A stretch of 64,000 bases of DNA from Phycisphaerae bacterium. Lineage in GTDB: Bacteria; Planctomycetota; Phycisphaerae; Sedimentisphaerales; Anaerobacaceae. The notes under the pieces are model-generated. The model did no database searches, was not told where the DNA came from, and saw nothing but the letters and a program-made list of their open reading frames with translations. A program made the translations under genes and the position numbers. Positions 12,730-14,523 of the stretch are shown piece after piece; positions within the stretch are counted from its first letter, which is position 1; every line of letters begins with the position of its first letter. The stretch spans positions 1 to 64,000 of the forward strand of contig JAAYBV010000002.1 of assembly GCA_012744475.1 (NCBI GenBank), given 5' to 3'.

Positions 12730-12854
12730 AATGGTCCTCCCTGGACATCGATTGCCTGTGAACTCGAATCATCCAACGCGATCCGGCTTCGCATTGAGAC
12801 GTCCACCGGACTGCCTGCCGTATGCATCCGAAAATAACGTTGCGCTTGTGCTGG

Positions 12855-13466
12855 TTAATCTCCCTGGTATCTTGCGTATAGCTCGATGCATGGTTTCACA
12901 ATCCTGATCAGGATCGTGTCACTGTTATTCACCTCAAACAGGGGCATGCTGATGAGATGGCCCTTGAACGAGATACGACTGCCCTTGTAGTCCAAGGATT
13001 CGAGGTTTCCCCGGAACATTTTCTCATCGTGATACTCGATATGCTGCATCGCCTGCTCGAACTTGGTGGGCCATTTTGAACTGGGGTCTTTCTGGATATC
13101 ATATAGCACGCCCGCATGAATCATTGGCTGTGCTGCCTTTTCGTCGTGCAGTATCACTCTCAGATAGAGGGCTTTCGCGGGTTTTTCAATTGAAAGTCTC
13201 GTTTGTCCCTTATCGAGTCTGATCTTGTCACTCGGCGCAAAAAAGACGGCGAGCTTCTTGAGCAGCCACATATTCACATGAACGGGTTCCAGGCCGGACG
13301 AACCTCTGCTGCTGATCTGATAGCCTGATGGCCTGCCGATGACGAAGTCCTCCTCGAGCAGCAGCCCTTCGACCTCCTTGATGAAGTAGGAGACTTCCAT
13401 ATACAACTTTTGAACGAAATCGAATGCCAACCTACACTGGCGGACTATCTGCTCGTTGCTCTCCAT
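12855..13466 (-). CDS. Hypothetical protein, partner of the PD-(D/E)XK-like gene
   Basis: A 203-residue soluble protein that I do not recognise. It has no signal peptide or transmembrane segment, and a mixed alpha/beta composition (FDFVQKLYMEVSYFIKEVEGLL; ARYQGD at the C-terminus). Its start lies inside the 3' end of the upstream nuclease-like gene (35-nt overlap), so the two are co-translated. I chose the ATG at 13466 because GGGAG precedes it by 8 nt; a TTG 15 nt further upstream is less likely. Base composition is clearly lower in G+C than the flanking genes (the line 13021-13080 is 29/60 GC), suggesting arrival by transfer together with its partner. Confidence 0.75.
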   Translation of the reverse strand: MESNEQIVRQCRLAFDFVQKLYMEVSYFIKEVEGLLLEEDFVIGRPSGYQISSRGSSGLEPVHVNMWLLKKLAVFFAPSDKIRLDKGQTRLSIEKPAKALYLRVILHDEKAAQPMIHAGVLYDIQKDPSSKWPTKFEQAMQHIEYHDEKMFRGNLESLDYKGSRISFKGHLISMPLFEVNNSDTILIRIVKPCIELYARYQGD

Positions 13467-14349
13467 CCAGGTTACTCCCAAAGAATATGACTGGTTCTGA
13501 AGGGGTCAAGTGGTCTCGGGTGCTGAAGGGCGTGAAGAAGTTCTTTTCTGATGGGTGTCGCTGTGGCCTGTTCGTATTGGCTGCGTGACCGACAGCGACC
13601 TGCGCGTTCAAGAATATCGAGTCAGGCAGGGTGGCTAGCGCGGCTTCGCAAGACAGAGACGTGACGAAGCCAATGAAATCTCCTCGGAATGCTGCGGTGG
13701 CTGCATCAAAGAATATCGGATCGAATGACTGGGGTTCGTACTTGAAGCTGTCAAAGGACGACGTGCCTCGATACTCTCGCAGGTTCTTCTTGCACAGCAG
13801 GTTATACAGATCTTCTGCGAATTCTCTTTCCGCGCTTGTCAGAGGTTCATCGCTCTCAAGGATACATTGGATCAAGACGGCGATCTTCTGCCAACTTGTC
13901 CATCGGAAGGATTTTCGATGTTCAGGCGACAAGCATAGAAATTTCTCCGGTTTGTAGCAGTAGTCTGCTGTGATGGCTACAAGGGAGAAGCATTCACCGT
14001 TGTCATTCGCCTCCTCTATGCCCCCCTCGATTTCACGCAGCAGTTGTGCCTTCGCTGCACCGCTTTCATCGCCAAATCCTGAATGATATTTTGCCTCGAA
14101 TAGAATGTAATGACCTCCCACCCGAATAACTACGTCCGGCTCGGTATTCTCGTCGAAACGCGGCCAGAAGATGAATTCACAGTGCATGACATCGGGTGCG
14201 GAGACTCCAAAGCCGAGCATCTCAAGATATCTTCTCAGGAATATGGAGCGATCACAGTATCGGAAGAATGAGAAGACATTTGACGTTAGAATGTCTTCAG
14301 CTCCCTCCAGTCTCGAAGATAACTTTCCATGTAGTTCAGCTATGTACAT
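13432..14349 (-). CDS. PD-(D/E)XK nuclease-like protein
   Basis: A 305-residue protein with the pattern of the PD-(D/E)XK phosphodiesterase superfamily: an N-terminal helix with EDILTSNVFSFFRY (residues 19-32), then EPDVVIRVGGHYILFEAKYH, where Asp72 and Glu85-Ala-Lys87 would bind metal. After that comes a helical region (TSWQKIAVLIQCILESDE), and the last 60 residues look unstructured. Proteins of this build are common in defence or mobile contexts, but the substrate is unknown. The ATG follows GAGGTG closely. The gene is A/T-rich (14221-14280 is 24/60 GC) compared with its neighbours. It overlaps the following gene by 35 nt. A possible TATAGA -10 box lies at 14382-14387 on this strand. Confidence 0.75.
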   Translation of the reverse strand: MYIAELHGKLSSRLEGAEDILTSNVFSFFRYCDRSIFLRRYLEMLGFGVSAPDVMHCEFIFWPRFDENTEPDVVIRVGGHYILFEAKYHSGFGDESGAAKAQLLREIEGGIEEANDNGECFSLVAITADYCYKPEKFLCLSPEHRKSFRWTSWQKIAVLIQCILESDEPLTSAEREFAEDLYNLLCKKNLREYRGTSSFDSFKYEPQSFDPIFFDAATAAFRGDFIGFVTSLSCEAALATLPDSIFLNAQVAVGHAANTNRPQRHPSEKNFFTPFSTRDHLTPSEPVIFFGSNLDGEQRADSPPV

Positions 14350-14462
14350 TCACCTCTGCCCCGTATGTCACGTGAGAAGATTCTATACCGCTGAGAGGGT
14401 TCTATCAAGCCGCAGCACCAAAAAGAAGGAGATTGGGTGATGGATAGGAGCTATGGGCCGGA

Positions 14463-14484
14463 AAGAGACCCGTGAGGGTCTCTT
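14463..14484 (-). terminator. Hairpin between the hydrolase operon and the A/T-rich island
   Basis: AAGAGACCC (14463-14471), loop GTGA, GGGTCTCTT (14476-14484): a perfect 9-bp stem just past the stop of the clan GH-A-like gene. The T tract is short on either strand, so terminator function is tentative. Confidence 0.4.
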
Positions 14485-14523
14485 GGTTACTTGCAGGCAT
14501 GTCGTCTCTGTCTTTGCACTATG

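Follow-up and report, generated by a model that had tools for sequence, protein, structure and literature searches.

The two overlapping genes at 12855-14349 of the window, the 64,000-nucleotide stretch of a Phycisphaerae bacterium contig analysed here, encode a PD-(D/E)XK nuclease-like protein (A) and a partner protein (B). We give roughly even odds (about 0.5) to the reading that they constitute a horizontally moving two-gene defence module, in which a nuclease effector is accompanied by a non-enzymatic regulator or sensor with a chaperone fold. The pair is most likely a variant of the candidate system PDC-M15, related to it but not identical.

In the model that we favor, A would be a PD-(D/E)XK DNA endonuclease effector, and B, co-translated with it, would be a non-enzymatic partner, probably with the type III secretion chaperone/YbjN fold. 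Fold and position suggest that B may bind A, most likely via the flexible, aromatic C-terminal tail, and that this binding would either keep A silent or load it. Control of this kind is not known from other PD-(D/E)XK effectors. A signal of infection, perceived by B or by the A-B complex, would then free A for cleavage of phage or cellular DNA, which may confer protection.

A catalogue entry that had been known by its nuclease thus becomes a module of two defined genes, with a hypothesis for the fold of B, and the module spans at least seven bacterial phyla as well as archaea. If B works as predicted, the pair would provide a direct test of chaperone-fold proteins as triggers in bacterial immunity.

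The gene pair and its low-GC island

As a first-pass annotation of the sequence had it, the two genes are overlapping minus-strand reading frames (Table 1). The mechanical start of the B frame is a TTG at 13481, and the ATG at 13466 was taken instead. An overlap is also present in many of the A-B homologues, in some of them as ATGA, which points to translational coupling of A and B. Distant homologues keep the C-terminal extension of A (FRGDFIGF...) as well as the entire B, indicating that both frames are real genes. A frameshift in the A C-terminus was considered and ruled out, as L035, L036, L038 and L039 share the extension.

Table 1. Features of the A-B region (window coordinates).
Feature	Position	Strand	Remarks
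Gene A, PD-(D/E)XK nuclease-like, 305 aa	13432..14349	-	Invariant motif, model, PDC-M15A match
Gene B, partner protein, 203 aa	12855..13466	-	Without family-library match; predicted alpha-beta3-alpha-beta2-alpha fold
Overlap of A end and B start, 35 nt	13432..13466	-
Low-GC island carrying A-B	12745..14523	.	GC 50.4%
Hairpin between upstream hydrolase gene and A	14463..14484	-	9-bp perfect stem
Promoter-like TTGATA-17-TAGAAT, 5' of A	14380..14408	-	10/12, consensus match only

The hairpin noticed earlier between the upstream hydrolase gene and A is formed by 14463-14471 and 14476-14484 (-15.2 kcal/mol, z -3.3) and has a short T-run. Three promoter-like sites were found in the region where 1.6 would be expected.

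The lower GC content that had been visible in sampled lines holds for the whole pair: A has 50.2% and B 49.8%, against 63.2% for the entire window, and among all 1500-bp segments (mean 63.2, sd 2.6) A-B has the lowest GC. GC at third codon positions is 0.55 in A and 0.66 in B, compared to 0.85 in both flanking genes.

Both of these flanking genes are kept across the genus. In two congeners (L061 and L062), the interval between them is filled by an oxidoreductase gene, 96% identical between the two and, to judge by its sequence, of the Gfo/Idh/MocA type. A third (L053) has the terminal part of this gene next to the first flank, where its contig stops. DNA similarity to the congeners breaks at about 12744 and returns at about 14524, and no remnant of the oxidoreductase gene is found at the island position in the window. 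The window's genome, which consists of 118 contigs, has an 84% identical oxidoreductase copy on another contig, while the island and both flanks lie on one. Since three congeners carry the oxidoreductase gene at this place, the A-B island occupies the position of a resident gene, which supports the earlier proposal of transferred DNA and rules out a housekeeping origin. Which of the two states is the older is read from three genomes against one, and the order is accordingly tentative.

Gene A: nuclease core and tail

An alignment of 23 A homologues, the window's included, has seven invariant residues: E18, D19, D72, E85, K87, Q102 and W153. The EDxLTSxVF helix and D...ExK core picked out by the first-pass annotation are located at residues 18-26 and, as EPD...EAK, at 70-72 and 85-87; the catalytic residues in them are invariant in the 23 homologues, and the predicted fold agrees with them. 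The A model is confident at residues 1-195 and of low confidence at 197-303. It comprises a helix at 18-31, strands at 58-62, 72-77 and 80-86, a helix at 100-116 and strands at 120-127 and 148-152, with the catalytic D...(D/E)xK placed on a central mixed sheet, so that the PD-(D/E)XK core, whose absence would have spoken against the first-pass annotation, is present in the predicted structure.

PD-(D/E)XK enzymes dominate the list from structural comparison of A, with Z from 5 to 7 (up to 6.9), and the model aligns to BspD6I, Avs4, LmuA, Can2, Cap4, McrC and Shedu. This list supports membership of A in the superfamily while picking out no nearer relative. A search of solved structures with the A sequence gave no match, and the Pfam REase-ARP match to A falls under its cut-off. 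Judged from sequence and model, A has a complete PD-(D/E)XK active site, and would be expected to cleave DNA.

The tail of A is clade-specific, yet many proteins of either clade have a repetitive, aromatic one. In the group of L005 it reads 'WxF...FxW...WRF'; for the window's group the pattern is 'IFF...FRGxFIGF...IFF...', and the number of 'IF/VF' units is five in L030 and four in L038. The tail finishes at the B start codon or slightly beyond.

Gene B: a fast-evolving partner with a predicted chaperone-like fold

BLAST of B alone across the phylum returned only the window's own B, and the family came to light only through the genes neighbouring A. These B homologues are about 177-237 aa long, encoded on the same strand as A and overlapping it or close by. 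They form two clades. In the window's clade (L030, L031, L032 and L035-L039), B is 34-53% identical to the window's B; in the other, identity over the whole alignment is 10-17%. An hhalign comparison of profiles joins the two clades (165 columns, probability 92%, E 6e-07). Among 23 B sequences, only W67 and L176 reach 90% conservation or more, and no polar residue is invariant, which argues against an enzyme.

The first-pass annotation had called the second gene an unrecognised orphan. It is unrecognised in that B matches nothing in any family library searched, but it is no orphan: a B is found at every A locus with downstream sequence, truncated remnants apart. B belongs to a widespread, fast-evolving family. 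A match of PDC-M49B to the N-terminal part of the B of L005 (E 0.0065) was judged too weak; this match, at L005:617-1198, might be a link between the partners of two candidate systems. Sequence matches of B to solved structures (helix-only matches to designed coiled coils and a weak one to the SunS glycosyltransferase at E 0.47) were taken as spurious.

The B model has a mean pLDDT of 91.6 and consists of a helix at 4-37, strands between 71 and 126, helices at 136-150, strands at 158-175 and a helix at 182-199. The order alpha-beta3-alpha-beta2-alpha is that of type III secretion chaperones and YbjN, and among the structural matches at Z 5 or above, most are type III secretion chaperones, YbjN/AmyR, DR1245 and Tll0839. 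Z does not exceed 6.6. Below 8, according to a warning of the tool, a value can stem from a common arrangement, and the similarity is a lead only; Foldseek alone gave no significant match to the B model. The type III secretion chaperone/YbjN assignment is thus suggestive, and the predicted fold fits a protein-binding role. DR1245 is known to bind a partner protein (PMC3575483), and peptide-binding TY-chaperones are predicted alongside restriction-fold domains in other, ADP-ribose conflict systems (PMC9503650).

Pairing, distribution and decay

Full-length A and full-length B occur in the same 8 of the 392 genomes of the phylum, and a B profile search found B without A in none of the 392. The profile includes the sequences of those eight genomes, so that their eight matches are expected and the informative part is that no B occurs without A. 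At all 22 matched A-B loci, B lies directly 3' of A; these loci belong to Planctomycetota, Proteobacteria, Elusimicrobia, Rokubacteria, Nitrospira, Firmicutes, Cloacimonadota and Methanothrix. At the 23rd, L037 (Aminicenantes), B follows an A that has one stop. B is present at all 23 A loci with downstream sequence, truncated remnants excluded, and the neighbourhood survey suggested at the outset thus finds B homologues always beside A. An A-like protein of genome G275 (L016) has a different partner alongside and was left out of the family. The pairwise distances of A and B are correlated (Spearman 0.77, Mantel p 0.0002), a value that still includes shared ancestry.

In two Planctomycetota genomes (L035:5636-10958 and L038:5628-11008), the pair lies between transketolase and sulfatase genes, a shared place from which it follows that the module can be inherited in situ. 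Single-sequence searches with A or B against plasmids and viral contigs gave no match, nor did a search of plasmids and phages with the A of L005 or of viral contigs with alignment A3. On the Cloacimonadota contig L032 (3883-5686), repeated 'SILSILSI' codon runs, present on both strands 5' of A, are a DNA repeat read as protein.

Decay is seen at several loci. In-frame stops occur once in the A of L037 (8001-8840) and once in the B of L028 (7951-8601), the remaining frame being open in each, and A is reduced to a fragment in L041, L042, L044 and L045. On the Halanaerobiaceae contigs, these are truncated A starts (L044:515-640 and L045:5185-5300). The pattern has the look of an accessory module that is gained and lost, although a lone stop in a draft genome could also be a sequencing error.

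A toxin-antitoxin system, with A as a toxic nuclease, B as its downstream antitoxin and element maintenance or dormancy rather than phage sensing as the main effect, would also be composed of two small, overlapping, strictly paired genes with a patchy distribution. The window's pair stands alone among metabolic genes and in place of one, and the intact B behind the interrupted A of L037 is what would be expected if A were the costly half. The reverse is seen in L028, with a stop in B and an open A; moreover, the tail of A is long and divergent, and many defence genes lie near the homologues. We consider this alternative doubtful, and it is compatible with defence rather than exclusive of it.

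Neighbourhoods of the homologues

Within about 6 kb of homologues are found Avs2 (E 0), a type I and a type II methyltransferase, DpdE and GajB-type UvrD helicases. The nearness to known defence genes that had been anticipated is thus seen for several homologues. The neighbourhood scan reports families without naming the member locus, and the Avs2 match probably belongs to L040 and the DpdE match to L029. L040 (2703-7439), from a Pacearchaeota bin, encodes a STAND-type protein of 1396 aa about 300 bases 5' of an A cut by the contig end, and this protein is probably the source of the Avs2 match. A McrB-like protein with DUF2357 is encoded close to a broken A; in L044, the A remnant lies directly 5' of a McrB-like gene (MrcB_N plus AAA_5). 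Other homologue loci, including the window's, lie among metabolic genes, and the window's own pair is surrounded by carbohydrate-active genes, outside any defence island.

A second alternative is modification-dependent (type IV-like) restriction, in which A would cut and B recognise the target with no control of a toxin. MspJI, McrC and BspD6I are among the closest folds of A, an A remnant adjoins the McrB-like gene, and B diverges faster than the A core (mean pairwise identity 21.7% vs. 37.6%), as a recognition subunit might. However, the predicted B fold is no known DNA- or modified-base-reading domain, and the pair is conserved without a methyltransferase, which occurs nearby in L024 and L029 only and is not a conserved part of the A-B unit. 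Type IV-like restriction is thus an unlikely explanation.

A role in DNA repair or another housekeeping process, with A as the nuclease and B as its chaperone, is very improbable: PD-(D/E)XK enzymes are found in repair, the YbjN-like DR1245 partners an SSB-like protein (PMC3575483) and the L031 pair precedes AddAB-like genes, but the pair is present in just 8 of 392 phylum genomes, has low GC with a different gene in its place in congeners, and has no conserved repair neighbour.

Relation to known systems

The two-gene defence module proposed here overlaps with PDC-M15, an anti-phage candidate of PADLOC-DB v2 made up of PDC-M15A and PDC-M15B. The PDC-M15A models match all 23 A proteins (best E 3e-16; 2e-07 for the window's A, whose scores against the four models are a modest 26-29 bits). 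The PDC-M15B model has 211 positions, about the size of B, but an adjacent PDC-M15B gene was not found: the PDC-M15B models match none of the 23 B proteins, even at E 10. It is possible that B is too distant a homologue for the model. The claim of an undescribed module thus stands for the function and for this B, but not for A, already catalogued as PDC-M15A. No mention of PDC-M15 by name was found in the literature searched. The PADLOC PDC entries, most of them untested, originate from a 'guilt-by-embedding' screen (PMC12988326; PMC10855318); PDC-M63, a candidate pair of another kind, gave no defence in its host when tested (PMC12409345). PDLC04460 matched none of the 392 phylum genomes and also had no match in the controls.

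B resembles the type III chaperone/YbjN/TY-chaperone superfamily in the order of its elements and in most of its best structural matches. It differs from it in having no sequence link, a longer first helix (4-37) and no secretion system, and the A-B neighbours are not the ADP-ribose set of the TY-chaperone systems (PMC9503650).

With the effectors Cap4/Avs, LmuA, Shedu, Can2 and McrC, A shares the core fold and the D-ExK-Q residues. Unlike them, A carries no fused sensor (STAND, SAVED, CARF or SMC), and at Z from 5 to 7 none of the PD-(D/E)XK defence effectors is nearer than the others; the sole constant companion of A is B.
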